From Bacteroidales bacterium (GTDB lineage Bacteria > Bacteroidota > Bacteroidia > Bacteroidales > P3), in contig JAKSMS010000001.1 of NCBI GenBank assembly GCA_024400415.1, positions 17,267 through 81,266 of the forward strand: a stretch of DNA of 64,000 bases, in the 5' to 3' direction. Within the stretch, counting starts at the first letter, position 1, and the number at the start of each line of letters is the position of its first letter. The notes below the pieces were generated by a model. It saw nothing but the letters and a program-made list of their open reading frames with translations, was not told the DNA's origin and did no database searches. Positions 15,976 to 61,334 of this stretch are shown piece by piece. Both the position numbers and the translations under genes were made by a program.

Positions 15976-16074
15976 CATATGTGCTATATGTGTGCTATAT
16001 ATGTGCTATATTTGTGCTATTACATAAGGATAGCAGATATATAGCACATATATAGCACACATATAGCACATATG
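15976..16074. repeat. palindromic 11-bp-phased repeat, copy 1
   Basis: Two 45-bp arms (15976-16020 and 16030-16074) are inverted copies differing at about three positions, with a 9-bp centre. Each arm contains four TGCTAT cores spaced exactly 11 bp apart (starts 15982, 15993, 16004, 16015; mirrored ATAGCA at 16030, 16041, 16052, 16063). Outer flanks include CTGGTTCATATG on one side. It lies between the divergent deoxynucleoside kinase and rpsO genes. Confidence 0.95.
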
Positions 16075-16484
16075 AACCAGATATGGACCAGATATGACAC
16101 AAATGTAAGGGCAGTAAGGGACTATCGCGCCGCTACTATGCACAAATGGCAACGCCTAGATTAAAGCAAGAAGCATGATTTTGCAACACAATACATCGAT
16201 ATTTCCTAAATGGTTGCGGCTTGCCATTGAGCCAGAGCGCCAAATGAACATTAAAATCGCCTAGAAAGTCTTAATTTTAGTTAAAATCAATAACTACGAG
16301 GATAAAATCAGCAATAGAAAGGTAATGAAAAAAGTATAGAAAAAGAAAAAATTGGTATGATTTGTAGAACTGAAAATTAGCGAATTAGAAAAATCATAAA
16401 AATATTTAGTATTGATTTTCAACACAATACAAAAACACATAGGAAGAAACAAAAAAAAATGCATCCAGATTCAAAAAAAGTTAG

Positions 16485-16492
16485 TATCTTTG
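16485..16492 (+). promoter_or_regulatory. Bacteroidetes -7 box (TATCTTTG) for rpsO-pnp
   Basis: TATCTTTG lies 47 bp upstream of the rpsO start and matches TAnnTTTG. An A-rich tract precedes it; the -33 box is not clear. Confidence 0.65.
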
Positions 16493-16539
16493 CAAACTGA
16501 AATTTGAAATCGAATAAACAATTAAAAAAGTAAAATAAA

Positions 16540-16809
16540 ATGTATCTTACCAAAGAAAAGAGAGAAGAAATCTTCGCACAGTATGGTGCAAACGCAAAAG
16601 ACAGCGGTTCAACCGAGGCACAGATCGCCCTGTTCACCTACAGAATCCAGCACCTCACCGAGCTGATGAAGCAGAACAAGAAGGACCAGGTTACCGAGCG
16701 CGCACTCGTTGGTCTCGTTGGAAAGCGTCGTCGTATGCTTGACTATCTGAAAGCAAACGATATCGAGCGCTATCGTGCTATCCTGAAGAAACTCAACCTC
16801 AGAAAATAA
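16540..16809 (+). CDS. rpsO: 30S ribosomal protein S15
   Basis: The 89-residue protein has the S15 length and signatures: GSTEAQIALFTYRIQHLTEL (about 22-41) and ALVGLVGKRRRMLDYLK (about 58-74), which bind the 16S rRNA central domain. The gene is followed by a terminator-like hairpin and then pnp, the same order as the E. coli rpsO-pnp operon, where PNPase autoregulation acts through a processed leader hairpin. Confidence 0.98.
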   Translation: MYLTKEKREEIFAQYGANAKDSGSTEAQIALFTYRIQHLTELMKQNKKDQVTERALVGLVGKRRRMLDYLKANDIERYRAILKKLNLRK

Positions 16810-16839
16810 TTTCGAAGGTATTCGAGACAATAAAGAAAC

Positions 16840-16874
16840 AAGGCAAATAGAAAGATATGCTATTTGCCTTTTTC
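16840..16874 (+). terminator. terminator hairpin after rpsO
   Basis: An 11-bp perfect stem, AAGGCAAATAG / CTATTTGCCTT, is followed by TTTC and T-rich sequence. It probably gives partial termination before pnp, since no strong separate pnp promoter is evident. Confidence 0.75.
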
Positions 16875-16887
16875 TTCATATTATAGG

Positions 16888-16910
16888 CTTATGCCGACGG
16901 TCGGCATAAG
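16888..16910. promoter_or_regulatory. perfect dyad in the rpsO-pnp gap
   Basis: CTTATGCCGAC and GTCGGCATAAG form an 11-bp inverted repeat around a single central base, 26 bp before the pnp start. As RNA it would be a stem in the pnp leader, analogous in position to the RNase III/PNPase-controlled hairpin of E. coli. As DNA it could be an operator. Confidence 0.5.
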
Positions 16911-16936
16911 TAGTCGGAAGAAAAATAAAGAAAAAG

Positions 16937-19186
16937 ATGAACATTATCACCAAAACCATCGATCTTGGCAATGGCCAGATCATCACTATTGAGACCGGCA
17001 AGCTGGCCAAGCAGGCCGACGGCGCTGCTGTGGTTCGCATGAACGACACCATGCTCCTCGCTACCGTATGCTCAAAGAAAGAAGCCGGTGAGCATGTAGA
17101 CTTCATGCCTCTCACCGTTGAATATCAAGAGAAATATGCTGCTATGGGCAAGTTCCCCGGTGGCTTCTTCAAACGTGAGGCACGCCCAAGCGAGCATGAA
17201 ATCCTCATTGCCCGCCTCGTTGACCGCGCACTCCGCCCTCTGTTCCCAGACAACTTCCACGCTGAAGTTCAGGTACAGATCACCCTCATCAGCGGCGACA
17301 AGAACACCGCTCCTGACGCACTGGCAGCTCTTGCAGCAGCATCTGCCATCGCCGTATCAGACCTTCCATTCAATGGCCCAGTTTCTGAGGTTCGCGTAAG
17401 CTACCTCAACGGCCAGTACGTAATCAATACTCCACTCCCAGAGATCGACAATGCTGACCTCGACCTGATCGTGGCCGCCACTGAGGACAACATCATGATG
17501 GTGGAAGGCGAAATGAAGGAAGTGAGCGAGGACTGCATGCTCAACGCCCTCAAGGCCGCCCACGAGGCTATCAAGCTGCAATGCCGCGCCATTGCTGAGC
17601 TCACCGTTGAGGCCGGCAAGACCGAAAAACGCGAGTACTGCCACGAGGTAAACGACGACGAACTCCGCGCCAAGATGCAGGAGGCTCTCTATCAGAAGTG
17701 CTACGACTTTGCTAAGCAGGGCATCGCTAACAAGCTGATGCGCGAAGAGGGCTTTGCCAACATTAAGAAAGAATATATTGAAAACAACTTCACCGAGGAA
17801 GACTTGGAGAACGACGATCTGACCTACATGATCGACCGTTACTACCATGACATCGAGAAAGAGGCCATGCGCGACATGGTGCTCAACGAGCGCATCCGTC
17901 TTGACGGCCGCCAGCTCGACGAGATTCGTCCTATCTGGAGCGAAGTGAGCCCACTGCCTTCAGCACACGGCAGCGCCATCTTCACCCGTGGCGAGACTCA
18001 GTCACTCTCAACCTGCACACTCGGCACCAAGCTCGACGAGCAGACTATCGACGGCGCAGTAATCGAAGGCAGCCGCCGCTTCCTCCTCCACTATAACTTC
18101 CCAGCATTTGCTACTGGCGAGGTGAAGGGCAACCGCGGCCTCAGCCGTCGCGAGGTAGGCCACGGCCACCTGGCATGGCGCGCACTTAAGGAAGTGCTTC
18201 CCACCGAAGACCAGTGCCCATATACCATCCGCGTAGTGAGCGACATCCTCGAGTCTAACGGCTCTTCATCCATGGCAACCGTTTGTGCCGGCTGTCTGGC
18301 ACTCATGGATGCAGGTGTGCCTATCCGCAAGCCTGTTACCGGTATTGCTATGGGCCTTATTTCTAAGGGCGACAAGTGGGCAGTACTCTCCGACATCCTC
18401 GGCGATGAGGACCACTTGGGAGATATGGACTTCAAGGTATGCGGTACCCGCGACGGTATCACCGCCTGCCAGATGGATATCAAGGTTGACGGCCTCAGCT
18501 ATGACGTATTGGCCAAGGCTCTCGACCAGGCCAAGCAGGGCCGCCTCTTCATCATGGACAAGATCCAGGAGACTCTGGCTGAGCCACGTGAGGATTACAA
18601 AGACTTCGTTCCTCGCATCCAGCAGATTACCATTCCAAAGGACTTCATCGGCGCCGTTATCGGTAAGGGTGGCGAGGTTATCCAGAAAATCCAGAAGGAG
18701 ACCAACTCTATCATTACCATCGAAGAGGATGGCGAGATTGGCCGCGTAGATGTTGCTGCCGTTGATAAGGCAAGCATCGAAGCAGCAATCAAGTGGATTA
18801 AAGAAATCTGCACCGTTCCTGAGGTTGGTCAGATTTATGATGCCAAGGTTGTCAGCATCGTTGAATTCGGCGCATTTCTCGAGTTCCTTCCTGGCAAGGA
18901 AGGCCTGATGCACATCAGCGAATATGACTACGCTCGCACTGAGACCCTCGAAGGACTTGTGAACGTTGGCGACACCATCCAGGTGAAGATTATTGCCATC
19001 GATGAGAAGAACGGCAAACTCAAACTGAGCCGCAAAGCCCTCCTGCCTAAACCAGAAGGCTATGTAGAGCCAGAACAGCGTCCACGTGCTCCACGTCGCG
19101 AAGGCGACCGTCCTCGCAGAGAGGGAGATCGCGGTCCACGTCGCGATGGAGATCGTCCTCGTCGTAGCGATGATCGCCGCAAATAA
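16937..19186 (+). CDS. pnp: polyribonucleotide nucleotidyltransferase (PNPase)
   Basis: PNPase degrades RNA 3' to 5' using phosphate and can also polymerise. The 749 residues show two RNase PH domains (about 10-225 and 320-545) with [14 protein letters not shown] and the second-domain [20 protein letters not shown] domain has the GxxG loop [14 protein letters not shown] near 570, and an S1 domain occupies about 635-705 ([20 protein letters not shown]). The tail is made of RREGDRP-type repeats rich in Arg and Asp (about 715-749), which may bind RNA or partners. It is the second gene after rpsO and ends at a strong terminator. Confidence 0.98.
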
Positions 19187-19216
19187 TTGAGACACAAAAG
19201 ACTCAATCATAAAAAA

Positions 19217-19250
19217 AAGAGAGCAGAATTCTGCTCTCTTTTCTTTGTTC
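19217..19250 (+). terminator. Rho-independent terminator of rpsO-pnp
   Basis: A perfect 12-bp palindromic stem AAGAGAGCAGAA / TTCTGCTCTCTT has A8 before it and T-rich sequence after it. Confidence 0.85.
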
Positions 19251-19300
19251 TTTGCGGCTATCGACCGAATAGTTGATCTAATCTGTCTCCTATATGTGGT

Positions 19301-21049
19301 CTATATCGACTCAACCTTGAAATGGCCAAATTCAGGATGAACCTTATAAAAGTTTACCGACTTGGCTGGCACCTTGAGAACAATATGTTCGATGTCTGTA
19401 CCCGTGAAAGTCAAGTTGCCCAACTCGGGTGGTAAAGCTGCACGAATCACCAGAGTCTTGAGCGACTTCATATCGGCCAATGCACACGGACCTATATATT
19501 TGATGCCTTTACCAATCTCAAGATATTCACATTGATCAGACCAGCGGAAGGCATAGCCATTAATCTCTTTCACCTTGTCACCTACTACAATATATTTAAA
19601 GCCAGTAGACCAAAAGGCGCCGCCATCGATAATTCTCAGACTTTGAGGCAAAATGATAGTATCCAAACCACCAACAGTTGCTAGTTCGCCTTCTGGCAAA
19701 GCATCCAAATTGTCGGGCAAAGACAGACGATCTGGCCATATGTCTGCCAACAGTTTTGGACATAAATGTTCTACAGATTGGTCAACAATCACTTCTTTTA
19801 GATGAGAACAACAGAAGAAGAAATGTGGAGGATCTACCTTATCGGAACGGGTGCAATTTTTAGATTTTACAATCAAAGTAGTGATATCAGTTGCACAAAA
19901 AGCATCATGACCTATTTTCTTAAGCGAGGCTGGCAGCATCAATGTATCTTTCAACTCATCGCACTCAAAAAAAGCCAAAGCCTCTATCGATAGCAGTCCT
20001 TCGTGCAATACAAGCTGCTTGATATTCTTGTTATGAGCGAATGCCGACTCCCCTATTGTGGTAAGCGGATAAGAGAATGGTCCCCATTTCACCGACTTAG
20101 GTATCTCTACCCGCCCATTCACATAAGAACCTGCTACCACACATGCTTCGCCATCTATAATATTGCAGTTGAGGTAATAACCATCACCAAGATCGGCACG
20201 TACACCTGAAGCATTGAGGTGTTTGAGGTTATTTATGCCCAACAACGTAGCCACAACGAGCAGTACTATCACAATAACACTCACAATCTGGCGAATGTTA
20301 AAGAACATATCACGCATTACGGCGTCAGCATTAGGATAACGCCGATCACGCGAACGACGAGTACACTTTCTATACGCCCTTCCATACCGATGTGGAAAAA
20401 TCAACTTAAGAACCTTGCCGAAACTATAGATATCCGACCGACAATCCAAAGGCTTGAGTTCAAGCTGCTCGGGAGAGGCATACTCACGTGTATAGGCCGG
20501 ATCTTTAAGAATTGCATATTCGTCTTTGTCGGAAAGGCCAAAGTCGATAATCTTTACGTTAGACCCGTTCTGCGTTACCAGAATATTCGTCGGTTTGATA
20601 TCTCGATGCACTATCTGCAGGCTGTGATAATAGCTCATAGCCTCAAGAATCTGCTTGCAGACCCTCTTACGTGCTGATACAGATGGATCCTCCGAAAGAA
20701 AGATATCCAATGTGCGTCCATCCACAAATGAAGTAATGATGCACTTGCCTAACTTTTCAACAGTCTCAAATCCCACCGTCTGCACGATAGCTGGATGATC
20801 CATTCTAATGGATATCTCAAATTCCTTGCGAAGCAGATTTTCGAAATAGGGAGCACCCATATACTCTGGCTTGAGGGACTTAAGAACGAAATATTTGCCC
20901 CATCGAATAGCTTTGGTCAGCCTATTGAACCCCTGAGAAGGAATCTCGTCTAGGAGAATAAACACATCAGACAAATCTGACGCCACACTATGAGACTGGT
21001 ATATAGTGCTAGATTCAGGCTCAGAGCTTTGGATTGGTTTGTTTGGCAT
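19301..21049 (-). CDS. membrane Ser/Thr protein kinase with BspA-type leucine-rich repeats
   Basis: I start it at the ATG at 21049; an upstream TTG at 21073 lies inside a hairpin after alaS. The 582 residues carry an N-terminal kinase domain: VLKSLKPEY has the ATP-binding Lys, HRDIKPTNIL is the catalytic loop (about residue 150) and IDFGLSD is the DFG motif. A membrane helix follows (IVSVIVIVLLVVATLLG, about 250-267). The outer half has LRR_5/BspA-like repeats such as TTIGESAFAHNKNIKQLVL and LKKIGHDAFCATDITTLIV. It probably phosphorylates cytoplasmic proteins in response to an external ligand; substrates are unknown. It is convergent with pnp. Confidence 0.88.
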   Translation of the reverse strand: MPNKPIQSSEPESSTIYQSHSVASDLSDVFILLDEIPSQGFNRLTKAIRWGKYFVLKSLKPEYMGAPYFENLLRKEFEISIRMDHPAIVQTVGFETVEKLGKCIITSFVDGRTLDIFLSEDPSVSARKRVCKQILEAMSYYHSLQIVHRDIKPTNILVTQNGSNVKIIDFGLSDKDEYAILKDPAYTREYASPEQLELKPLDCRSDIYSFGKVLKLIFPHRYGRAYRKCTRRSRDRRYPNADAVMRDMFFNIRQIVSVIVIVLLVVATLLGINNLKHLNASGVRADLGDGYYLNCNIIDGEACVVAGSYVNGRVEIPKSVKWGPFSYPLTTIGESAFAHNKNIKQLVLHEGLLSIEALAFFECDELKDTLMLPASLKKIGHDAFCATDITTLIVKSKNCTRSDKVDPPHFFFCCSHLKEVIVDQSVEHLCPKLLADIWPDRLSLPDNLDALPEGELATVGGLDTIILPQSLRIIDGGAFWSTGFKYIVVGDKVKEINGYAFRWSDQCEYLEIGKGIKYIGPCALADMKSLKTLVIRAALPPELGNLTFTGTDIEHIVLKVPAKSVNFYKVHPEFGHFKVESI

Positions 21050-21071
21050 TTTGTAAAGACTATATAATAGC

Positions 21072-21108
21072 AATAAGGAAGCCGACTCTATGGGACGGCC
21101 TCCTTATT
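21072..21108 (-). terminator. hairpin between alaS and the kinase gene
   Basis: The 13-position stem AATAAGGA(A)GCCG / CGGC(C)TCCTTATT has one mismatch and a loop of about 11 nt. It follows the alaS stop closely. The following T stretch is weak, so termination may be partial. Confidence 0.6.
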
Positions 21109-21122
21109 ACCATATTGTAGAT

Positions 21123-23720: not shown

Positions 23721-23750
23721 ATTATTGTTTTTTTCTATTATTCTTAATCA

Positions 23751-28227: not shown

Positions 28228-29301
28228 TTAAGCGTAGAGCTCTTCGAAGATCTTGCGGAGTTTCTCGCTCTCGCGGAGTTCCTGAAGGGTGAACTCAGCG
28301 TGGCCCTTGGTGTAGCCGTTGCCCATGATCATGTTTACGTCCATGCCGATACCCTCAGCACCGAGGCTGGCCTTGGTGAAGCTGGTAGCCATAGAGAAGA
28401 AGTAAACGGTTCCGTCGTCCTTGGTGCAGAGCACTGCGGTCATTTCCTGATCAGGAACGTTTACGCAGTTGATGGTAACGTCGGCCATCTTGCCATTGGT
28501 GAGTTCGTATACGCGCTCGTAGATTTCAACAGGGGTCTTGCCGGCTACAGACTCAACAACGTCGCAGAACTGGAGGTCTTTCAGACGGTTGGTAGATTTT
28601 GGGCTGTTGGTGAGGCCGATAACCTTACCGGTAACGCCAACGCGCTTCTTAGCCTCGTAAGCGCAGAGCATACCGCTCTTGCCACCAGCGCCCATGATAA
28701 CTACGGTCTGGCCATACTGGCAGAGACGTGCGGTCTGTGCGGGAGCACCAGCAACATCGAGTGCGGAGAGGGCGAGCTTCTCGGGCATGTCGGTAGGAAT
28801 CTTAGCGTAGATACCGCTCTCGAAGAGGATAGCCTTACCCTTGATGTCAACCTGGTCGATCTCAGGACGGATCTCGAGGATCTCGTCGATGCGGAGAGGA
28901 GTAAGTGACAGAGAAACGAGGGTAGCAATGCGATCGCCCTCTTTCAGATCGATCTTGCCCTTCAGAGCGTCGCCGATCTTCTCTACCTTACCAAGGAGCA
29001 TACCGCCAGAACCGGTTCTGCGGTTGCGATGTTTGCCCTGGAGCTCAACGTTGAGAAGCATTTCCTTCTTAACCTCTTCCATGATTTTCTCCTCGCTTGC
29101 ACCAGCACCAGCCTGCTCTTTAGCATAGTTGTGGATGTCGGTGAATGAAGCAGAGTCAATATTCAGAGTCTGTACGTCGATGAGGATCTCATTGTCCCAG
29201 ATCTCGTCCATATTGTTATCAAGTTTGTTTGCTGGCTGTGGCAGCACGCCCTTAGGCTCAATTACACGGTGGGTACCGAATTTGTTACCTTTTTTCTGCA
29301 T
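28228..29301 (-). CDS. kdd: L-erythro-3,5-diaminohexanoate dehydrogenase
   Basis: Kdd oxidatively deaminates 3,5-diaminohexanoate to 3-keto-5-aminohexanoate with NAD(P), the step after the two aminomutases in lysine fermentation. The 357-residue medium-chain-reductase-like protein opens with GTHRVIEPKGVLPQPA and DEILIDVQTLNIDSASF-like sequence characteristic of Kdd. The Rossmann segment is VVIMGAGGKSGMLCAYEAK (about 202-220). Length fits the family (~345-350). It is the first gene of the kdd-kamA operon, with a TATCTTTG box about 65 bp upstream. Confidence 0.93.
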   Translation of the reverse strand: MQKKGNKFGTHRVIEPKGVLPQPANKLDNNMDEIWDNEILIDVQTLNIDSASFTDIHNYAKEQAGAGASEEKIMEEVKKEMLLNVELQGKHRNRRTGSGGMLLGKVEKIGDALKGKIDLKEGDRIATLVSLSLTPLRIDEILEIRPEIDQVDIKGKAILFESGIYAKIPTDMPEKLALSALDVAGAPAQTARLCQYGQTVVIMGAGGKSGMLCAYEAKKRVGVTGKVIGLTNSPKSTNRLKDLQFCDVVESVAGKTPVEIYERVYELTNGKMADVTINCVNVPDQEMTAVLCTKDDGTVYFFSMATSFTKASLGAEGIGMDVNMIMGNGYTKGHAEFTLQELRESEKLRKIFEELYA

Positions 29302-29636: not shown

Positions 29637-29735
29637 TATATGTGCTATATGTGTGCTATATATGTGCTATATTTCTGCTATCTTATAAGGATAGGACATA
29701 TATAGCACATATATAGCACACATATAGCACATATG
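29637..29735. repeat. palindromic 11-bp-phased repeat, copy 2
   Basis: This is the same structure as copy 1: about 45-bp inverted arms of four 11-bp units with TGCTAT/ATAGCA cores, around a centre reading CTTATAAGG. The innermost right unit reads ATAGGA instead of ATAGCA. It lies between the divergent kdd and DUF4919 genes. Confidence 0.95.
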
Positions 29736-30010: not shown

Positions 30011-31165
30011 ATGAAAAAAGTATTCCTAACAACATGCCTGCTGCTCATCATCAACCTCGGATTTGCCCAAACCGACTCAACGAATGTGGTTTCATACCTG
30101 ACCCCAAACTACGACCACATCAAGCGCGTGATGAACGACAAGCAGAGTCCGCAGTACCTGCCCAAACTGGCCAAGATGGTTGAGGATGCCGACACCTCCA
30201 TCACGATCGAGGACCTGATAGTGCTCTACTACGGCCAGGCACTCAAAGACAGCTACGACCCCTACGGACAAGTAGAACAGTTGGCAAAGATACGGAAAAT
30301 ACTCAAGCAGAAAGATATCAGCAAGAAGGATGCCGACAAGATACTGTCGCTCTGCGACGACATCATCAAGGACAACCCTGCCGAGCCCAGAGCCTACTGG
30401 TACAGATACATCGGATACAACATCCTGGTCAAATACCACAATGGCGACACCTCCTTGATTGACAAAGCCGATACCCAACTCAGAATGATACTGGCTGCCA
30501 TACAGTCGACCGGCAACGGCGCCTCGATGGAGACGGCCATGCACGTCACCCACACGGCCCACGAATACTTCCTGCTCAACTTGTTCGACTTCAAATTTGA
30601 CGGACAGGCTCTCGTGTACGACAAGCAGGGCCACGCATACGACCAGATGAATGTGAAAGAAAACCCTTATGGAATAGAATCGCTGTATTTCAACGTCGAC
30701 GCCATTATCCGTTCCTGGAGTAGGGTGCTGAATGACGAACCCAAGCTGTCGGACAAGCCCGTCTCGGAAATCACAGTCGACCTCGGCACCAAGTTCGTGC
30801 TAGAGATGGTGAAGACTAGCAAAAAGAAGAGCACATTCAAAATCGTGTCAGTAGAAAAGGTTGGCGACACTATACTTAAGAACGATCCCGCCCTGTTTCC
30901 CGACGACATTCCCGAAAACCAGATTATCGGCTACTTCTGCCAGACGGCATTCCTGTCGGCAGGCGACGGAGCCCACCCATGCCTGATTACCAAGAAGGGC
31001 AATGCTGCCATCAACTTCCAGATGGAAACCGAGATCGAATACTCGCACAGCGGCGAATTTCAGAGCACCTCAAACAACGGCATAATCGGCACCGTAAAAG
31101 GCATAGAGATGTGGAGCGGCCCCCTCTCAAGAATCCGTATCAGCAACATCCGCGTCATGAAATAG
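30011..31165 (+). CDS. secreted DUF4919 family protein with C-terminal extension
   Basis: The 384-residue protein has a signal peptide (VFLTTCLLLIINLGFA, cleavage near residue 20). Residues ~28-235 resemble DUF4919 proteins of Bacteroidetes: an N-terminal PNYDHIKRVMNDKQSPQYLP, then DLIVLYYGQAL and a helical segment with PRAYWYRYIGYNILVKY. The C-terminal 150 residues are beta-rich and unassigned. The function is unknown; it is probably periplasmic. Its 3' end overlaps the convergent anmK by 11 bp, with no terminator between them. Confidence 0.75.
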   Translation: MKKVFLTTCLLLIINLGFAQTDSTNVVSYLTPNYDHIKRVMNDKQSPQYLPKLAKMVEDADTSITIEDLIVLYYGQALKDSYDPYGQVEQLAKIRKILKQKDISKKDADKILSLCDDIIKDNPAEPRAYWYRYIGYNILVKYHNGDTSLIDKADTQLRMILAAIQSTGNGASMETAMHVTHTAHEYFLLNLFDFKFDGQALVYDKQGHAYDQMNVKENPYGIESLYFNVDAIIRSWSRVLNDEPKLSDKPVSEITVDLGTKFVLEMVKTSKKKSTFKIVSVEKVGDTILKNDPALFPDDIPENQIIGYFCQTAFLSAGDGAHPCLITKKGNAAINFQMETEIEYSHSGEFQSTSNNGIIGTVKGIEMWSGPLSRIRISNIRVMK

Positions 31166-49520: not shown

Positions 49521-49525
49521 CCTTG

Positions 49526-49599
49526 TGGCCCCTCCCCGGCTCGAACGGGGGACCCACTGATTATGAGTCAGTTGCTCTAACCAACTGAGCTAAGGGGCC
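49526..49599 (-). tRNA. tRNA with anticodon CAU, probably tRNA-Ile2
   Basis: The 74-nt cloverleaf on the minus strand has acceptor stem GGCCCCT / AGGGGCC, D-arm AGCTCAGTTGGTTAGAGCA and an anticodon loop containing CAT. The acceptor stem and first 15 bases match E. coli tRNA-Ile2 (ileX), whose C34 becomes lysidine to read AUA, rather than elongator or initiator tRNA-Met. Identity as Ile2 is therefore favoured but rests on memory of that sequence. Confidence 0.85.
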
Positions 49600-49775: not shown

Positions 49776-49877
49776 TTCATATGTGCTATATATGTGCTAT
49801 ATGTGTGCTATATTTGTACTATTCTATAGGATAGCAGATATATAGCACACATATAGCACATATATAGCACATATGAA
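49776..49877. repeat. palindromic 11-bp-phased repeat, copy 3 (swapped units)
   Basis: The 45-bp inverted arms surround an 8-bp centre (TCTATAGG). Cores recur every 11 bp as in the other copies, the innermost left core being TACTAT. The second and third units (ATATGTGCTAT and ATGTGTGCTAT) are in the opposite order from copies 1, 2 and 4, and the swap is present in both arms. It lies between the divergent tRNA and typA genes. Confidence 0.95.
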
Positions 49878-50010: not shown

Positions 50011-51852
50011 ATGCAAAATATTCGTAACGTTGCAATTATAGCTCACGTCGACCATGGCAAGACCACCTTGGTTGACCGTATTCTCCATCAATCCAAGCTT
50101 TTTAGAGAGAACCAGGAGACTGGCGACCTCATCCTTGACAACAATGACCTCGAGCGCGAACGCGGCATAACCATTCTCTCGAAGAACGTTTCCGTGCGCT
50201 ACAAGGGATTCAAGATCAACATTATCGATACCCCTGGCCATAGCGACTTTGGCGGAGAGGTAGAGCGCGTGCTCAACATGGCCGACGGCGTGCTGCTGGT
50301 AGTAGACGCCTTCGAAGGCCCTATGCCCCAGACCCGCTTCGTGCTGCAGAAGGCCATCGAATTGGGACTGAAGCCCATCGTGGTGATCAACAAGGTTGAC
50401 AAGCCCAACTGCGACCCAGACCTCACCCAGGAGGCCGTATTCGACCTGATGTTCAACCTGGGCGCCAACAACGACCAGCTCGACTTCCCAACCGCATACG
50501 GCAGTGCCAAGAATGGCTGGATGGGCGCCGACTGGCGCGAGCAGACTGAGGACATCAGCTACCTGATGGACCTCATCATCGAGACCCTCCCAGCACCTAA
50601 GATTGAGGATGGCAACACCCAGATGATGATTTCATCGCTCGACTACAGCAGCTATATCGGCCGCATCGCCGTAGGCCGCCTGACCCGCGGCACGCTGCAG
50701 GCCGGACAGGAAATCACCCTCGTGAAGCGCGACGGCAAGCAGATCAAGAGCCGCGTGAAGGAGCTCTACACCTTTGAGGGCCTCGGCAAAGAGCGCATCA
50801 AGGTGCCCGCCGAAGCTGGCGAAATCTGCGCCGTGCTGCTCGACCTCGACAAGAACGTGGCCTTCGAGATTGGCGACTCCATCTGCGACGCCGAAAATCC
50901 CGAGCCTCTTACCCCTATCAAGGTGGACGAGCCTACGATGAGCATGCTCTTCACCATCAACAACTCGCCATTCTTCGGCAAGGAAGGCAAGTTTGTAACC
51001 AGCCGCCACATTCGCGAGCGCCTCTTCAAGGAGCTGGAGAAGAACCTGGCCCTGCGCATCGAGGAGACCAACTCTCCTGACGCCCTCCTGGTGTTCGGCC
51101 GCGGCATCCTCCACCTCAGCATCCTTATCGAGACCATGCGTCGCGAAGGCTACGAGCTGCAGGTGGGCCAGCCAAAGGTTATCATCAAGGAAATCGACGG
51201 CCAGAAGTGCGAGCCTATCGAGCAGCTGACCGTATTGGTGCCCGAAGAATTCTCAAGCAAGGTAATCGACGTAGTAACCCGCCGCAAGGGCGATGTAGGC
51301 AACATCGAGACCAAGGGCGACCGCGTACAGCTCGACTTCAACATTCCTTCACGAGGCATCATCGGATTGAGAAACACCCTTCTTACCGCCACCAACGGCG
51401 AGGCAGTAATAGCCCACCGCCTGGTAGGATTCGAGCCTTGGAAGGGCGAGATAGACACCCACAAGATGGGCGCCCTCATCGCCAAAGAAACCGGAGAGAG
51501 CACGGCCTATAGCATCAGCAAGCTCCAGGACCGCGGCCCATTCTTCATCGAGCCTGGCGATATGGTATACACCGGAGAGGTGATCGGCGAGAGCCTCCGT
51601 CCTGGCAACGACATCGTGATCAACGTCGTAACCGCCAAGAACCTTACCAACATGCGCAGCAAGAGTGCCGACGACAAGTCGACCTGCTCGCCTGCCATCA
51701 AGTTCTCTCTCGAAGAGGCCATGGAGTACATTCGCGAGGATGAGTACCTTGAGATTACTCCAGAGAACCTCCGCATCCGCAAGATCATCCTCGACGAGAC
51801 CGAGCGCAAGCGCGCCAAGATTGCCGCTGAGGCTGCTGCTTCAAACGATTAA
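50011..51852 (+). CDS. typA: ribosome-associated GTPase TypA/BipA
   Basis: BipA is a translational GTPase that aids 50S assembly and growth under stress. The 613 residues show the G1 loop [15 protein letters not shown] (about 9-23), [11 protein letters not shown] (switch I region), [15 protein letters not shown] (G3) and [10 protein letters not shown] (G4). Beta-barrel and EF-G-like domains follow, then the BipA-specific C-terminal domain with [20 protein letters not shown]-type sequence near 550. Length is typical. It is a single-gene unit with its own promoter and a terminator. Confidence 0.97.
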
Positions 51853-53965: not shown

Positions 53966-53991
53966 AATAATGTTATTAATGATTAACTATT

Positions 53992-55143: not shown

Positions 55144-55156
55144 ATTATCTTTTTTT

Positions 55157-55201: not shown

Positions 55202-55205
55202 ACGA

Positions 55206-55889: not shown

Positions 55890-55954
55890 ATTATCTATTT
55901 TTATCTTTCACAATAATTATAATCATTCAACTGCTGGTTGAGTTCATCTATCCG

Positions 55955-57322
55955 CTATTTGATCAGTTCGTCGGCGAGCTGGGCAAAGTCGATGCCGTCG
56001 AAGTTGCCGCTGCTCATCATCAGCAAGTTGTACTTCTGGTTGCCGTCCATCAGCTCATGGAGGCAGCGCACCACCTCCTGAGATTCACAGAACACCTTAA
56101 TCTCCCTATTGCCGAAGGCCTCGTAGACCTGCTCGGTGGTGAGCGGCGGCAGCTTCTTGTGGGCCACGGCGTGGGGGTTGAAATAGACGATGGGCACCTC
56201 GGCCTTGTCCATGCAGCCTTTGTACTGCTTCAAGAACTCGGCCGTCAGCGAACTGAAGGTATGCAGCTCCATGCATGCAATCAGAGGCTTCTCGCTATAT
56301 TGCTCCTTCATGGCCGAGATGGTGGCTCGCAGCTTCGAGGGGGCGTGTGCAAAGTCCTTGTACATCACCTGCTCCGTGGTGCGCTTCACCAGTTCGAGGC
56401 GTTTGCTGGCGCCGCCGAACGAGGAGATGGCCTCGTCGAACTGCACGTCGCTTACACCCAACTTCTGGCAGGCATAGCGGGCAGCGGTCATATTGAGCAG
56501 GTTGTGGTTACCGAACACCGACAGCGGCACTCTCCTACCCTCGCTGACGAGGTAGGTCACGCCATTTTCCACCACATGCTCGGGCACGCGGTAGGGGCGC
56601 TTCTCGATGTCAGTGCGCTGGTTCTTCTCGGCCACGTCGCGCACCTCCTTATCGTCGTCGCAGTAGATGAGGGTGCCGTTGGGCATGATCAGGTCCACGA
56701 ACTGGGCAAACTGGTCCTTGTATATCTCAAAGGTGGGGAACACGTTGATGTGGTCCCACTCGATGCCGGTCATGATGGCGATGTCGGGCTTGTAGAGGTG
56801 GAACTTCGGACGGCGGTCGATGGGCGAGGTCAGGTATTCGTCGCCCTCGATGACCATCACCTTGGCGCTTTCGCTGAGTCGCACCATCACCTCAAAGCCT
56901 TCCAATTGGGCGCCCACCATGTAGTCGGCCTCGATGCCGCAGTGCTGCAGCACATGGAGTATCATGGCCGTGGTGGTGGTCTTGCCGTGACTGCCGCCTA
57001 TCACGATGCGCAGCTTGTCCTTCGACTGCTCGTAGAGGTACTCGGGGTAGCTGTATATCTTCAGACCCAGTTCTTGGGCGCGGATGAGTTCGGGGTTGTC
57101 CAGTCGGGCGTGCATGCCTAAGACCACGGCGTCAAGGTCGGTGGTGATGCGGTCGGGGTTCCACCCTATCGAGTCGGGCAGCAGACCATATTTCTGCAGA
57201 CGGCTCTTGGCTGGATCGAAGATCTCGTCGTCCGAGCCGGTCACGTTGACGCCCTTCAAATGAAGGGCTATTGCTAAGTTGTGCATGGCGCTCCCGCCAA
57301 TAGCTATAAAGTGTACGTTCAT
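55955..57322 (-). CDS. mpl: UDP-N-acetylmuramate--L-Ala-gamma-D-Glu-meso-DAP ligase (Mpl-type Mur ligase)
   Basis: Mpl joins recycled tripeptide to UDP-MurNAc, bypassing MurC-E. The 455 residues show the Mur-ligase N-terminal Rossmann fold (HFIAIGGSAMHNLAIALHLKG), the ATP loop GGSHGKTTTTAMIL (about 108-121), EGDEYLTSPIDRRPKF and TGIEWDHINVFP, and FGGASKRLELV in the third domain. DEYLTSPIDRRPKF distinguishes Mpl from MurC. With AnmK at 31-32 kb it supports wall recycling. The short gap before the HD gene upstream is filled by an inserted small-gene cassette. Confidence 0.9.
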   Translation of the reverse strand: MNVHFIAIGGSAMHNLAIALHLKGVNVTGSDDEIFDPAKSRLQKYGLLPDSIGWNPDRITTDLDAVVLGMHARLDNPELIRAQELGLKIYSYPEYLYEQSKDKLRIVIGGSHGKTTTTAMILHVLQHCGIEADYMVGAQLEGFEVMVRLSESAKVMVIEGDEYLTSPIDRRPKFHLYKPDIAIMTGIEWDHINVFPTFEIYKDQFAQFVDLIMPNGTLIYCDDDKEVRDVAEKNQRTDIEKRPYRVPEHVVENGVTYLVSEGRRVPLSVFGNHNLLNMTAARYACQKLGVSDVQFDEAISSFGGASKRLELVKRTTEQVMYKDFAHAPSKLRATISAMKEQYSEKPLIACMELHTFSSLTAEFLKQYKGCMDKAEVPIVYFNPHAVAHKKLPPLTTEQVYEAFGNREIKVFCESQEVVRCLHELMDGNQKYNLLMMSSGNFDGIDFAQLADELIK

Positions 57323-57331
57323 ATTCTATTT

Positions 57332-57400
57332 GTAGTTAAGTAGATGAGTAGTTATTCGCTATGCTCATGCCGCAAGCGGCAAAGTAGTTAAGACAAATGA
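57332..57400. repeat. left inverted repeat of cassette A
   Basis: It contains three GTAGnnnn units at exactly 8-bp spacing (57332, 57340, 57348), a GCCGC-AA-GCGGC mini-hairpin (57369-57380) and the inner arm GTAGTTAAGACAAATGA (57384-57400). GATGAGTAGTTAT (57343-57355) and the inner arm both recur inverted to the right of the gene. Confidence 0.85.
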
Positions 57401-57409
57401 ACCATTCAT

Positions 57410-57793
57410 CTAAAAATCATCTGTTATTGCAGTTTTGCTTATTATACCCCTACAATAGGAATTTAACAGTTTACTTGTTTCTTCTATTTTAATGTGCAGC
57501 TCTTCGAATTCAGAATCGTCGATATATTCTAAATCTCTAGACAAGATATGATAGTCACGACACTCTTCCAAACTTCCTTGGGCGATATTGTAGAATCGTA
57601 ATTTGTCGTTATGGCCCAGTTTCTTATAGCCCTCCGCTATATTGGCCTCAATCGACACTGCCGCTCTACGGAACTGAGAAACCAAACAAAATTTCTCATC
57701 TGCCGGGAAATGCTTTGTGACACGATAAACCGACAAGACGAAATCATGCGCCTTTTGCCATGCCACTACATTTTCAAAACTATATGTTGACAT
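57410..57793 (-). CDS. four-helix-bundle protein (S23/IVP-like)
   Basis: The 127-residue protein shows the S23/four-helix-bundle pattern: FENVVAWQKAHDFVLSVYRV (about 6-25), LVSQFRRAAVSIEANIAEGY (about 37-56) and an EARDYLIL-like EECRDYHILSRDLEYI (about 76-91). The family (PF05635 type) was first seen as the protein encoded in intervening sequences of 23S rRNA genes and includes the Avd accessory protein of diversity-generating retroelements. No catalytic residues are known. It lies inside inverted repeats that fill the gap between mpl and the HD gene, so it looks like an inserted cassette. Confidence 0.88.
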   Translation of the reverse strand: MSTYSFENVVAWQKAHDFVLSVYRVTKHFPADEKFCLVSQFRRAAVSIEANIAEGYKKLGHNDKLRFYNIAQGSLEECRDYHILSRDLEYIDDSEFEELHIKIEETSKLLNSYCRGIISKTAITDDF

Positions 57794-57809
57794 AATTGAA
57801 ATTATCTGA

Positions 57810-57873
57810 TCATTCGTCTTAACTACATTAACTACCCATCTACATAACTACTCATCAAAACTACTAAACTACT
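57810..57873. repeat. right inverted repeat of cassette A
   Basis: TCATTCGTCTTAACTAC (57810-57826) mirrors the left inner arm with one mismatch, and ATAACTACTCATC (57844-57856) mirrors the left outer arm exactly. CTAC tetramers recur at 57823, 57832, 57840, 57848, 57861 and 57869, mostly 8 bp apart. The repeat runs directly into the stop codon of the HD gene. Confidence 0.85.
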
Positions 57874-59100
57874 CTACTTCAGTTCCTTCGGGAACGTGAT
57901 ATAGTATTTCGTTACCGATTTTTCGAGGAAGTGGCGGTCGAGCTGGTCGCTGGCCTCGGAGATGCTCTTCACCTCGCCGGTCTTGAACAGCACTTTGATC
58001 TCGCGGTCGTTGAAATCGTAGGCATGGTTCTGAAGTCTGCCCGTGGTCACAAAGTAGTCGGCATCAGCTTCATCAATGGCATAGAGCAGCTGCGTGCGCG
58101 ACTTCTGAGTTTCAAGATAATCGCCGTCGAATGGCTGTTCGCCCTCGCGGATAGCGGGCAAGCGGCGGTTGATGAGGTTTGTGGCCAGCGTGCGGAGAAG
58201 GAAGTCGTCGTGCAGCATCCATCCCTTGATAGCCGTAGTCACGTCGGTATCGTCAATCATGGCAAACTTATCAAGCAGCGACCTATCCCTCTCGAAGTCC
58301 TCCTTCGTATAGCGGTTGCCAAGAAACTCCATGAGCGGTTGCGGTCCTTCCACCCTTACGCCCTGCTCTACCAAGTTGCGGGCACGACGCAGCACGCTCA
58401 GCAGCATGGAGTCGGCGGCTATCACGGTCTTGTGCATATACACCTGCCAGTACATCAGTCGGCGCGAGATGATGAACTTCTCTATCGAATACACGCCCTT
58501 CTCATCCACCACCAGCTCGTCGTTGCGCACGTTGAGCATATTGATGATGCGCTCCGTGCCCACTATGCCCTCGCTCACTCCGGAGTAGAAGCTGTCACGG
58601 CTCAGATAGTCGAGGCGGTCCATGTCGAGCTGGCCGCTCACCAGCTGATGCAGGTAGCGCTTGGGATAAGTGTCCTCAAAGATGGCTATCGCCGTCTCGA
58701 GACGTCCTCCGAACTGCTCATTGAGTCGGCGCATGAACATGCTGGAGAACACCTCGTGGTGCACATTCACCAGCACAAACTCCGAGGTATGGGAGAATGG
58801 GCCATGGCCGATGTCGTGCAGCAGGATGGCGAGCTTCACGCCCAGTTCCTCGTCATGGGTCATCTGCACGCCTTTCATCTTGAGCACATCGATAGCACGG
58901 CACATCAAGTTGAGGGCGCCCAGCATGTGGCTGAAGCGGTTGTGCACGGCACCGGGATACACCAGATAGGTCAATCCCAGCTGCTTGATATGGCGCTGGC
59001 GTTGGAAGTAGGGATGCTGCAGCACATCGAAGATCAAGTCGTCCTCAATAGTCAGAAACCCATACACCGGGTCATTGATGATCTTTCTCTTATTTGTCAT
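57874..59100 (-). CDS. HD-domain phosphohydrolase (dGTPase/SAMHD1-like, YwfO type)
   Basis: The 408-residue protein has the HD superfamily metal site: HNRFSHMLGALNLMCRAI (first His, about 54-71), LLHDIGHGPFSHTSE (HD pair, about 92-106) and DRLDYLSRDSFYSGV (conserved Asp). The sequence FLTIEDDLIFDVLQHPYFQR at the start is typical of the YwfO/SAMHD1-like group that hydrolyses dNTPs. It could control nucleotide pools or act in phage defence; the sequence does not decide. It is flanked on both sides by hairpin-framed small-gene cassettes. Confidence 0.9.
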   Translation of the reverse strand: MTNKRKIINDPVYGFLTIEDDLIFDVLQHPYFQRQRHIKQLGLTYLVYPGAVHNRFSHMLGALNLMCRAIDVLKMKGVQMTHDEELGVKLAILLHDIGHGPFSHTSEFVLVNVHHEVFSSMFMRRLNEQFGGRLETAIAIFEDTYPKRYLHQLVSGQLDMDRLDYLSRDSFYSGVSEGIVGTERIINMLNVRNDELVVDEKGVYSIEKFIISRRLMYWQVYMHKTVIAADSMLLSVLRRARNLVEQGVRVEGPQPLMEFLGNRYTKEDFERDRSLLDKFAMIDDTDVTTAIKGWMLHDDFLLRTLATNLINRRLPAIREGEQPFDGDYLETQKSRTQLLYAIDEADADYFVTTGRLQNHAYDFNDREIKVLFKTGEVKSISEASDQLDRHFLEKSVTKYYITFPKELK

Positions 59101-59124
59101 AACGGTTCATAGCCTTCGGCAAAA

Positions 59125-59162
59125 CACGAATTACCATGAATTGCCCATGAATTATCATTAAT
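59125..59162. repeat. left inverted repeat of cassette B
   Basis: Three CATGAATTA-like units (10-11 bp spacing) run from 59125 to the stop codon of the GxxExxY gene. They match the inverted right arm at 31 of 38 positions. GCC-TTC-GGCAAAA just outside (59112-59123) resembles the mini-hairpin of cassette A. Confidence 0.85.
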
Positions 59163-59638
59163 TATTCTGTTCTTTCTACGCAATCCGAATCCCAGTGCAC
59201 AGGTTCGAACACAAACTCCATATTTTTATCCAACAATTGATATTCATCCAGTTCCTCAGAATAGCCATATCGTTCTCCATGAAGACTATCTTGACCGAAA
59301 TTAATCAAAAGACCAACTTTTAGACCGGTCAGCCTCAAATAGTTGAATAATTGCGCACGATGCCCTGACGTCAACTTGTTGGCAGACTTTAATTCCACGC
59401 ACACATCGTCCACCATGAGATCCATACGGTACTTTTTATCCAACAATGTGCCTTTATAATAGCATCTAACCTCCTGTTCCCGTTTGCAATTCACTCCGCG
59501 AGCTTTCAGTTCAAGCGAAAGGGCCTCATTATAGAGTGGTTCCAACAACCCCTTTCCTAACGAAGAATGAACCTCCATGGCCGCACCTATCACATTGAAC
59601 ACAACATCCTTATATTGAGAATAGCCTGACATTGACAT
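59162..59638 (-). CDS. GxxExxY family protein (PD-(D/E)XK-like)
   Basis: The 158-residue protein shows VFNVIGAAMEVHSSLGKG and the family-naming motif GLLEPLYNEAL (G-x2-E-x2-Y, about residues 31-37). LDKKYRMDLMVDDVCVELKS follows (Asp...Glu-x-Lys of a PD-(D/E)XK nuclease-like core, about 70-89), then NYLRLTGLKVGLLINFG. The family is widespread, short and of unproven function. The whole gene is bracketed by 38-bp inverted repeats that touch its start and stop codons, which marks it as an inserted cassette. Confidence 0.88.
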   Translation of the reverse strand: MSMSGYSQYKDVVFNVIGAAMEVHSSLGKGLLEPLYNEALSLELKARGVNCKREQEVRCYYKGTLLDKKYRMDLMVDDVCVELKSANKLTSGHRAQLFNYLRLTGLKVGLLINFGQDSLHGERYGYSEELDEYQLLDKNMEFVFEPVHWDSDCVERTE

Positions 59639-59674
59639 TTATGTTAATTCATGGATAATTTATGCTAATTCATG
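59637..59674. repeat. right inverted repeat of cassette B
   Basis: The repeat units TTAATTCATGG, ATAATTTATGC and TAATTCATGCC mirror the left arm over 38 bp. The arm includes the region of the gene's start codon. Confidence 0.85.
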
Positions 59675-59686
59675 CCAAGCGAAGCG

Positions 59687-60028
59687 TTAAAAAATGCAAG
59701 CCACGAACGCCGCTGGCGTAGTGCCGGTATTTTTTATAGAGTGGCGGTTGCCGTCGGCGGTGAACACCACGTCGCCGGCGTGGAGGATATGGGTCTCGTC
59801 GTTGTCGGTCACCGTCACCTCTCCCTCGAGGATGTAGTATATCTCGGCATCGTCCACATGGGCGTGCTCCTTGATCATGCTGCCCACGGGCAGGTCTATG
59901 CGGTTGAAGCATTTGAGGCGGCCGCCCATCTCTGCGGAGGTCAGCACCAGGTTCTTGATCACCTCGCCGTCGAAGTTGCCCACATTGGCAGCCGACTGGC
60001 GCTCTACGTTTTCTTTCTTCTTGATCAT
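59687..60028 (-). CDS. cupin domain protein
   Basis: The 113-residue protein is a single cupin barrel: PVGSMIKEHAHVDDAEIYYI (about 46-65, the G(X)5HXH...E metal motif) and HILHAGDVVFTADGNRHSIKN (about 82-102, split here: HILHAGDVVF, TADGNRHSIKN; second motif with His). The substrate is unknown; metal-binding small-molecule sensing or isomerisation are typical roles. A 51-bp gap with 8-bp-phased CTAG repeats separates it from the next gene upstream. Confidence 0.88.
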   Translation of the reverse strand: MIKKKENVERQSAANVGNFDGEVIKNLVLTSAEMGGRLKCFNRIDLPVGSMIKEHAHVDDAEIYYILEGEVTVTDNDETHILHAGDVVFTADGNRHSIKNTGTTPAAFVACIF

Positions 60029-60042
60029 AGCGTTATTTTTTA

Positions 60043-60074
60043 CTAGGAAACTAGTTATCTAGCCAACTAGTTTT
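60043..60074. repeat. four CTAG tetramers at exact 8-bp spacing
   Basis: CTAGGAAA, CTAGTTAT, CTAGCCAA and CTAGTTTT follow each other without interruption. Inside, AAACTAGTT and AACTAGTTT form a perfect 9-bp inverted repeat. The 8-bp phase equals that of the GTAGnnnn repeat around cassette A, but no gene is enclosed here. Confidence 0.85.
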
Positions 60075-60078
60075 ATCC

Positions 60079-60498
60079 TTAATCATTCAATTTCAGTTTC
60101 TGGCCGAAGATGCGGGCAGCGCAGGCCACATACTCGTTGCAGGGCTTCTTCTTGATGCCGCTATCCTCCAATCCCAGCAGGCGGCGACACACGATGTCGC
60201 CATTCACCTCGCGAAACTCGTCGGCCATCGACTTCACCAGGTTGTGGTTCATCATCATGTCGGCGCGGTCCCTTACCGGGGCTATGACCTGGCTCAGCAG
60301 GGCCATGCCGGTCACGCATCCGCACACCTCGTTCATCTTAGCCAGTCCGCGGCCGAAGGGAGCCGCCGTGGCCAGCGCCACCTCAGGCTTCATGTCCAGC
60401 AGGTCGGCATAGGCCATCACCACCGATTGGGCACAATTGAGGCCCTCTTCATGAAGCTGTCGCGCCTTCGAAACGCGCTGTTCAATATCTATTTCCAT
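60079..60498 (-). CDS. C_GCAxxG_C_C family protein
   Basis: The 139-residue protein has the family cysteine pattern: GLNCAQSVVMAYADLL (about 15-30), APFGRGLAKMNEVCGCVTGM (about 46-65, with the GCxxG-type pair), VCRRLLG and PCNEYVACAARI near the C-terminus. The conserved cysteines suggest a redox or metal-cluster role; members often sit near redox and transport genes of anaerobes. The function is not established. It is upstream of the cupin gene on the same strand. Confidence 0.88.
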   Translation of the reverse strand: MEIDIEQRVSKARQLHEEGLNCAQSVVMAYADLLDMKPEVALATAAPFGRGLAKMNEVCGCVTGMALLSQVIAPVRDRADMMMNHNLVKSMADEFREVNGDIVCRRLLGLEDSGIKKKPCNEYVACAARIFGQKLKLND

Positions 60499-60536
60499 AT
60501 CTTGATATGTTTTGAGTTCGAAAAATAATCGTCTGC

Positions 60537-60544
60537 AAAATTAC
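60537..60544 (-). promoter_or_regulatory. Bacteroidetes -7 box (TAATTTTG) for the C_GCAxxG-cupin unit
   Basis: Minus-strand TAATTTTG, about 40 bp upstream of the start codon, matches TAnnTTTG. Confidence 0.55.
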
Positions 60545-60587
60545 TAAATATATTTGAAAAAAACAAATTATAATAACACAAAAAAAA

Positions 60588-60610
60588 GAGCAGACCCATC
60601 GAGCCTGCCC
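60588..60610 (-). terminator. terminator of the small lipoprotein gene
   Basis: The stem GGGCAG / CTGCTC (one G-U) is followed by T8 on the minus strand, 26 bp after the lipoprotein stop. Confidence 0.75.
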
Positions 60611-60635
60611 CTATAGACTGAAAGTCAACAAACTA

Positions 60636-61028
60636 TCATTTCTTCAGCACCAATGTCATTTTAGACTCAATCCCGTCTGCCATCTCTGTTGTAGAGAGCG
60701 TCATCGACCGCTTCTCGAGATTGTCCACATGAAACACTTCCGTCTCGCCATCCGACTGCAGGGTCAGAACGTCCGACGCCATGGTCCACGATCCCTTGCG
60801 GACCACATCGCCATTAGCCGATTCCCATGTCCCTTCAGCCGTGAATTCCAGCGCCAAGTCACGCATATTGCTGCTTATATCGTAGGTGTAGCCGTCCAAC
60901 TGCGACGTGGCATAATCCAACTCCCACCTTCCAATCAGCAGATCCTCCGGCTCCTTAGAGCATGAGGTAAGGTTGATGAACATAAAAGTCGAAAATACTA
61001 TAACAACAAATGCAATAATTCTTCTCAT
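60636..61028 (-). CDS. small lipocalin-like lipoprotein
   Basis: The 130-residue protein has a lipoprotein signal (FSTFMFINLTSCSKEP, lipobox Cys near residue 23). A beta-rich domain starting LLIGRWELDYA and continuing LALEFTAEGTWESANGDVVR and GSWTMASDVLTLQSDG follows, the pattern of lipocalin-like (DUF4923/DUF5004-type) lipoproteins of Bacteroidetes. The precise family is uncertain. It is a single-gene unit. Confidence 0.75.
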   Translation of the reverse strand: MRRIIAFVVIVFSTFMFINLTSCSKEPEDLLIGRWELDYATSQLDGYTYDISSNMRDLALEFTAEGTWESANGDVVRKGSWTMASDVLTLQSDGETEVFHVDNLEKRSMTLSTTEMADGIESKMTLVLKK

Positions 61029-61110
61029 AGATGCGTAATTTTTATAATGTGCTTACTTTTTCTTAATAACGCACTTATTTAGAATATATTGTATAAAAAT
61101 TCATATTTTT

Positions 61111-61141
61111 TTTGGCATTTCGAAAATAATACGTATATTTG
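61111..61141 (+). promoter_or_regulatory. full Bacteroidetes promoter upstream of palindrome copy 4
   Basis: TTTG at 61111-61114, 19 bp, then TATATTTG at 61134-61141. A transcript from it would carry palindrome copy 4 in its 5' leader before the DUF6266-like gene. Confidence 0.65.
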
Positions 61142-61236
61142 CATATAATAATAACCGCTCAAAAATCCAATAAAATGCTATATAACAATATATTAATAGC
61201 GAATATAAGGCACGCATACCTGGATTATATCTGGTT

Positions 61237-61334
61237 CATATGTGCTATATGTGTGCTATATATGTGCTATATATATGCTATCTTATAGAATAGGACAAAT
61301 ATAGCACATATATAGCACACATATAGCAGATATG
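61237..61334. repeat. palindromic 11-bp-phased repeat, copy 4
   Basis: It has arms of four 11-bp units like copies 1 and 2, with a centre reading CTTATAGAA. The innermost left unit reads ATGCTAT and the innermost right ATAGGA. The flank ATCTGGTTCATATG on the left equals the right flanks (inverted) of copies 1 and 3. It lies between the divergent lipoprotein and DUF6266-like genes. Confidence 0.95.

Follow-up and report, generated by a model that had tools for sequence, protein, structure and literature searches.

Dispersed palindromes of 11-bp units in a Bacteroidales genome and their unit dialects across the genus

Introduction

Repeats between bacterial genes are as a rule taken to be either selfish insertions or fixed sites for proteins. 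A stretch of 64,000 nucleotides from a Bacteroidales bacterium (lineage P3; GenBank assembly GCA_024400415.1, contig JAKSMS010000001.1, positions 17,267 to 81,266 of the forward strand), hereafter the window, contains four palindromes made of tandem 11-bp units and raises the question of what such elements are, how they are maintained and what might read them. The palindromes belong to a family with a fixed layout and a constant 11-bp step, which is present in dozens of copies, lies mostly upstream of promoter motifs in the source genome, is written in different unit dialects and occupies some sites that are shared between species. Related species have sites in common, the sequence differs genome-wide and the 11-bp step and the array layout are kept. 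Tentatively, and with somewhat less than an even chance of being right, the elements are interpreted as DNA platforms for a putative protein that would bind head to tail upstream of divergent promoters, their cores being homogenised by a presumed gene conversion.

Results

Copies in the window and across the source genome

The four palindromes lie where the initial annotation placed them, within 1-2 bp, and their basic anatomy is as described there, with the corrections given below. Each consists of two inverted 44-bp arms, with four 11-bp units per arm, flanking a centre of 8 or 9 bp. The unit consensus of the window copies is ATATGTGCTAT, the third base being A, G or T in unit 3. A two-unit probe matches the window 23 times, whereas 100 dinucleotide-preserving shuffles give no match. 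Folded as single-stranded DNA, the four copies reach -37.1 to -44.4 kcal/mol (z -9.9 to -13.1).

The palindromes are not confined to the window. The source assembly (1.84 Mb, 79 contigs, 81% complete) holds at least 46, of which 44 were aligned and two more were read; one of these two ends at a contig end, and a further place on contig 6 was only listed and stands outside the count. A pattern search yielded 140 forward and 145 reverse arm matches, against none for the reversed control, and a BLAST-type search yielded 51 first-look candidates, 40 of them scored. One spurious cluster, in L090, was removed before the copies were counted (G and L numbers are working handles for genomes and for loci or contigs). 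In at least 36 of the 44 aligned copies the core comprises exactly four units on either side of the centre. Old elements without a core were sought in 288 kb of source-genome sequence; three pattern matches were obtained, none convincing.

Core, centre and shells

Between-copy identity was profiled on 43 of the 44 copies, aligned on the centre (one with a short flank was omitted). It amounts to 0.92, 0.99, 0.94 and 0.96 in units 1 to 4, falls to 0.55, 0.48, 0.34 and 0.28 beyond the core, and is about 0.26 from unit 10. Approximately four to six further diverged units per side continue beyond the arms in the same 11-bp register: folded at period 11 the shells score 998 bits, against at most 347 for the other periods from 5 to 17 and 12-22 for a distant-flank control. 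Since these outer units hold the register, the whole element measures about 200 bp, and the length of about 100 bp noted initially applies to the core (97 bp) but not to the element with its shells. In shell unit 5, A, T, G and C at four unit positions are retained at 79-98% (for A at -53, 84 of 86 arms), whereas values near 45-50% are seen at several other positions. This uneven retention indicates that the conservation is position-specific, and to judge from the sequence its pattern resembles that of a binding motif. The right shells of L106 and L104 have unusually long, regular, TAG- or TGG-centred units.

The arms are not mirror images in the innermost unit. All 43 copies have different bases on the two arms at position -7, 39 do at -5 and 37 at -9. 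At -7 one arm has C and the opposite arm G in 41 copies, and this base sets the orientation of a copy; position -9 reads A/T in 21 copies, T/A in 16, A/A in 6 and T/T in none. The eight units are therefore not the eight equal sites that had been supposed. The notion of a perfect cruciform is not supported either, conserved mismatches flanking the centre. The placement of all eight sites on one helix face holds only approximately; one turn of B-DNA takes 10.5 bp, so that the argument from an 11-bp step loses its support as stated.

Within a copy, the arms match above chance in unit 3 (0.964 against 0.936, 0 of 5,000 permutations), and the ends of unit 5 are unlike (2 homotypic pairs against 8.5 expected, p 0.002). 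Core and shells were compared in the 36 copies with standard 4+4 arms and long flanks. Core differences do not follow shell differences (Mantel r 0.088, p 0.12). In the 60 pairs of copies with the most similar shells, the core orientation is the same in 28 and opposite in 32. The type and the orientation of the core are thus uncoupled from the shells, which indicates that replacement or flipping of the core takes place without regard to the shells around it. This uncoupling could stem from ectopic gene conversion acting in either orientation, or from inversion by recombination between the arms combined with selection on the core.

Unit dialects across the genus

The source dialect, allowing up to three mismatches, is absent from 60 relatives (36 of the genus and 24 of other families), save for a related dialect, GTGATATATAT, in G017. 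The matches of a relaxed pattern over 120 genus genomes, together with those of its reversed control, reveal that other species carry different 11-bp units. The TGCTAT core by which the palindromes were first described is consequently a property of the source dialect and not a general feature. Dissimilar units include TTGTTCTTCGA (G028), TTGTTGTCCAG (G122), CATCATCCAGG (G135) and CATATAGTATT (G085). The unit words vary between species and the 11-bp step is constant.

An unbiased sample of ten genus species (718 kb) contains 31 tandem arrays of period 11, of which 14 are palindromic by a score that is reached at 1 of 200 random places. In the same sample there are four arrays of period 10 and four of period 12, none of them palindromic, and no period-11 array occurs in 272 kb from ten other families of the same order or in locally shuffled sequence. 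The arrays are distributed over G016 (4), G002 (2), G122 (3), G116 (1), G028 (8), G108 (4) and G135 (9), with none in the samples of G143, G127 and G110, the last of only 17 kb; G127 has some elsewhere in its genome. Arrays of period 8 are also frequent in the genus sample (L227-L266), 17 in 718 kb with 2 palindromic, and the 272 kb from outgroup families contain no such array.

Several unit words occur within some genomes, and a G028 element matches places in G114, G090, G108, G098 and G130 at 86-92% identity. One-armed arrays exist (G017, G135). Twenty-three copies of G085 show the same onion layout, in which a uniform core is surrounded by shells of other units in register. The phasing of GC was calculated for 32 hand-picked unit words and has a mean first-harmonic power of 0.180 against 0.200 for permuted words. 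This removes a gyrase or nucleosome-like bending motif as a general explanation, and the bending or nucleoid-type motif proposed initially is not supported in that general form, though the source dialect is itself phased (0.44 for the source word alone). Assemblies break at arrays or hold N stretches within them (L199, L209, L219 (G067), L421, L422 (G007)), so that short-read genomes may undercount arrays.

Sites shared between species

Of eight G085 loci whose flanks were prepared, three were searched for in 12 genomes. In the close relative G007 (82-92% flank identity) an array or array fragment lies beside all three tested loci (L421, L422 and L423). At one of the G007 loci only one flank is on the contig, and at two there are N inside the array. 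CATATAGTATT and CATATAGTATA, the most frequent words in G085, do not appear in those G007 arrays that were read; TATATCGTTCT and TATATTGTATT, found in G007, were not seen in G085.

A further shared site is the spacer at which a YitT-family gene is followed by tRNA-Gly(CCC) and then by a Bax1-I family gene. Arrays are present there in five of the seven species read (G085, G007, G067, G012 and G004), in at least four wordings, with the words TATATTGTTCT in G067, TTGTTCTTCGG in G012 and ATGGTAGGTAT in G004; the spacers of G098 and G084 have no array. Beside the G004 array (L439) stands a long inverted repeat (each arm about 24 bp), which by eye looks like a second nested palindrome.

In the pair G018 and G143, one G018 array is without counterpart in G143, G021 or G026, and another faces a degenerate 11-bp-phased stretch at the matching site in G143 (by eye). 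G000 and G017 have two neighbourhoods in common, which is about chance by a rough estimate. At the typA locus, a scan found period-11 arrays in 2 of the 30 loci fetched (29 from relatives and the source). The sharing with G007 and the absences from distant species, set out below, indicate that sites are common to near relatives and are gained or lost over longer times.

Genomic setting and promoters

Genes were called with an in-house codon-usage caller rather than taken from annotation, and promoters are motif matches. Among the 37 source-genome copies with both neighbours called, 24 lie between divergent genes, 11 between co-directional and 2 between convergent ones. The divergent enrichment persists after 200 bp are subtracted from the gap, both for residual gaps above 150 bp (22/30 against 10/30, odds ratio 5.5, p 0.004) and above 200 bp (22/28 against 7/24, odds ratio 8.9, p 0.0006). 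The motif TAnnTTTG, which is the bacteroidote promoter type, is found between element and gene at 42 of 59 facing gene starts, only beyond the element at 3 and not at all at 14; the reversed motif lies between element and gene at 3 of the 59. As the promoter motif is mostly between element and gene, the elements are mostly outside transcripts and RNA roles are unlikely.

The neighbours are mixed and largely housekeeping (recA, tRNA synthetases, PEPCK, SHMT, typA, S15), and type IX secretion domains are present among them. These domains, the TAnnTTTG promoter type and the structural match of S15 (7jil) together point to a bacteroidote as the source. A Pfam scan of 89 of the 90 candidates together, with S15 scanned separately, matched 194 families, of which 25 were listed. 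Among these 25, no family occurs in more than 3 of the 89 neighbours and none of transposases recurs, so that the check for a co-occurring transposase proposed at the outset came out negative to that extent. A single shared regulon was rejected within the same scope, the neighbours having no evident common function.

Discussion

A protein platform

The initial suggestion of a binding platform remains the best reading of this genome-wide repeat, but no protein was found for it. Under this platform interpretation, one unit would be one site, and a sequence-specific protein would bind head to tail, once per 11 bp. The protein would assemble on the eight strong sites of the core and on the weaker sites of the shells, in spacers between divergent promoters, and the bound platform might keep the two promoters insulated or determine their topology. 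Homogenisation of the cores between sites would come from ectopic gene conversion, perhaps begun by breakage at the extruded centre of the palindrome; because the arms are palindromic, pairing during conversion would be possible in either orientation. Subsequently, a new unit word would spread to all sites of the genome and the reader protein would follow, or the reverse, and such joint change would give rise to dialects at old sites. The broader proposition is that these are long-lived sites whose 11-bp word is rewritten in concert genome-wide, co-evolving with a DNA-reading protein and acting on divergent promoters, by analogy with the turnover of centromere satellites or of recombination-hotspot motifs. 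This is plausible but should be regarded as doubtful.

Several observations weigh against the platform and its conversion. No binding protein was identified, no genome-wide search for regulators having been made, and no conversion event was observed. The edge past unit 4 is sharp (0.957 to 0.546), unlike ragged conversion tracts, and the orientation flips could also arise through recombination between the arms. A test of the spacing constraint by insertions and deletions in the shells is weak, since the gapped alignment of weakly alike shells overfits. The divergent preference is not significant in other species (9/21 against 29/112, p 0.12, for the 21 of 31 arrays with two called neighbours), and copy 4 of the window has its promoter motif only beyond the element. 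Positions are well tested by only one pair of close relatives, G085 and G007. Within this pair, L422 in G007 is only an arm end of 20-odd bases beside an N gap, and the vocabularies overlap, CATATACTTCT and CATATAGTTCT being found in both. More widely, unit words are common to several species, and the dialects are therefore not strictly one per species. In more distant species the arrays are mostly absent: they are present at the YitT site in 2 of 4, at the L386 site in 0 of 4 and at the L373 site in 0 of 7, the last judged from one flank only.

If the platform interpretation is true, the elements are a bacterial case of dispersed and probably regulatory DNA that evolves in concert, with about fifty natural replicates per genome, and they point to a putative DNA-reading protein. 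Period-11 palindromes are in addition a signature that is easily searched for in a genus with 120 or more species. If only the selfish explanation survives, they are a variant of interspersed palindromic repeats.

Selfish repeats

The elements may instead be selfish palindromic satellites, or DNA resembling miniature inverted-repeat transposable elements (MITEs), without host function and spread by a trans-acting enzyme or by slippage and conversion. The 11-bp length would then persist because unequal exchange alters the number of units and not their length. This explanation is unlikely, if worth serious consideration. It accounts for the dispersed, intergenic distribution, the uniform core, the many families in the genus with several per genome, and the many orthologous sites that are empty in distant species. 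On the other hand, it leaves aside the sites held in common with a close relative, the bias to divergent, promoter-upstream spacers in the source genome and the lack of 10- or 12-bp palindromic arrays in the sample. No transposase family recurs among the 89 flanking proteins, as judged from the 25 of 194 families listed, where a single case could be hidden and beside which no genome-wide transposase screen was made.

MITEs are short inverted-repeat elements without genes. The present elements are alike in this, but their core evolves apart from the shells. Direct target duplications were sought at the core edge and at six shell edges; those of 5-9 bp are found in 0 of the 44 copies, and those of 3-4 bp in 0 to 3 of the 44. 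Plasmid, phage and viral collections gave 0 matches for the source and G028 dialects, the two searched, and an origin from such replicons was rejected on this ground. The refuting outcome named at the start, a match to a known insertion-sequence end or MITE family, did not arise in plasmids, phages, viral contigs or at the tested edges, no insertion-sequence library having been searched. A few tandem units of the window dialect lie on contigs labelled as metagenome-assembled genomes of Euryarchaeota (L081, 5250-5600) and Mailhella (L082, 1800-2250); these may be mis-binned contigs or independent arrays.

Repetitive extragenic palindromes (REPs), the bacterial interspersed mosaic elements (BIMEs), REPINs and the RAYT transposases are treated in PMC3116915 and PMC3733652, and in the available text are likewise dispersed intergenic palindromes that differ between species. 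REPs are described there as palindromes of 20-40 bp with a GTAG or CGTC tag at one end (PMC3733652), whereas here a 97-bp core is built of 11-bp units and some sites are common to species while the units differ. GTAG and CGTC are each found within 16 bp outside the core in 0 of 44 copies, and inside the core in 1 and 0. RAYT (Y1, PF01797) has no match in G017 or in the source genome (81% complete, so that a missing stretch could hold one), and mobilisation by RAYT was rejected on the latter basis. PF01797 (Y1/RAYT-like) is matched in 73 of 120 genus genomes, and period-11 arrays occur in genomes with and without it. The claimed difference from REPs and BIMEs is supported, with length, tag and RAYT as the features compared.

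Operators of one regulator

The elements could also be operators of one conventional regulator (OmpR/PhoB-like, MerR/CarH-like or ParR-like) that binds 11-bp direct repeats, the loci being its regulon. PhoB and R1 parC are known cases of 11-bp direct repeats, and the elements share with such operators the tandem head-to-tail 11-bp units upstream of promoter motifs. However, inverted double arms with eight units are unusual for operators, the neighbours have no evident common function and several unit words coexist per genome in other species, all of which makes the explanation improbable. CarH reads operators of tandem 11-bp direct repeats (PMC9304148) and is a precedent for a protein that reads such repeats. 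In the available text of that source, the CarH operators are likewise head-to-tail, with conserved beside less conserved units, but they comprise three to five repeats at regulated promoters and no paired inverted multi-unit arms.

Topological elements and RNA

Topological elements between divergent promoters, either wrapping sites of the gyrase type or cruciforms driven by supercoiling, are quite improbable. The divergent location, the strong hairpins and the GC phasing of the source dialect agree with them. A 130-bp motif in which GC is phased is preferred by E. coli gyrase, which cleaves BIMEs as well (PMC6379681). As far as that source is available, the gyrase sites are likewise long, periodic and roughly symmetric and also lie at dispersed repeats; the arrays here are without general GC phasing, the power over the 32 words not exceeding that of permuted ones, and this motif was rejected in general. 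The arrays moreover reach nearly to the centre and lack a counterpart of the 36-bp middle segment found in the gyrase motif, and the conserved mismatches by the centre and the long one-armed arrays speak against a required cruciform. RNA hairpins serving as terminators, mRNA stabilisers or leader structures are suggested by the length of the hairpins and by the 3 of 59 starts (one at copy 4) with a promoter motif only beyond the element, but they were rejected as very improbable in view of the 42 starts with the motif between element and gene, the 2 convergent against 24 divergent copies, the separate hairpin seen by eye beside the YitT-tRNA-Gly array and the lack of any Rfam match at the copies at the gathering threshold.

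Other relatives of the class

The DNA uptake sequence dialects of Neisseriaceae (PMC3630211) are, in the available text, likewise short genome-repeated words in species dialects. The present elements are set apart by description, with a few dozen loci, tandem and inverted arrays and a promoter-upstream position. PINSR of Prevotella intermedia (PMC4755523), of the same phylum, is likewise a lineage-specific intergenic repeat; the available account gives 188 bp and no terminal inverted repeats and mentions no 11-bp units, unlike the elements here. As the initial annotation had anticipated, searches of the open-access literature found no description of the element. The period-11 palindromic class appears to be new, and its nearest kinds are REPINs, MITEs, uptake dialects (compared by description) and 11-bp operators.

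The window copies and their neighbours

The features of the four window copies are collected in Table 1.

Table 1. Palindrome parts and adjoining genes in the 64,000-nucleotide window (positions counted from its first letter).
Feature	Positions	Strand	Remarks
Copy 1, left shell	15913..15976	no strand	diverged units in 11-bp register; extent approximate, from 43-copy profile
Copy 1, left arm	15977..16020	+	four 11-bp units, consensus ATATGTGCTAT
Copy 1, centre	16021..16029	no strand	9 bp, asymmetric
Copy 1, right arm	16030..16073	-	inverted
Copy 1, right shell	16074..16137	no strand	extent approximate, from 43-copy profile
Copy 2, left arm	29638..29681	+	
Copy 2, centre	29682..29690	no strand	9 bp
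Copy 2, right arm	29691..29734	-	
Copy 3, left arm	49779..49822	+	
Copy 3, centre	49823..49830	no strand	8 bp
Copy 3, right arm	49831..49874	-	
Copy 4, left arm	61238..61281	+	
Copy 4, centre	61282..61289	no strand	8 bp
Copy 4, right arm	61290..61333	-	
Deoxynucleoside kinase gene	14778..15428	-	adjoins copy 1
Ribosomal protein S15 gene	16540..16809	+	adjoins copy 1
Gene for protein with zinc-binding dehydrogenase domain	28228..29301	-	adjoins copy 2
DUF4919 protein gene	30011..31165	+	adjoins copy 2
tRNA-Met	49525..49599	-	adjoins copy 3
typA	50011..51852	+	divergent neighbour of copy 3

A scan of the window with Rfam at the gathering threshold returned three tRNAs only, and no RNA family at the copies. 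The promoter motif of typA, TAACTTTGC, lies 34 bases ahead of the start, between copy 3 and the gene. The best structural match of the S15 protein beside copy 1 is 7jil, presumably a Flavobacterium ribosome.

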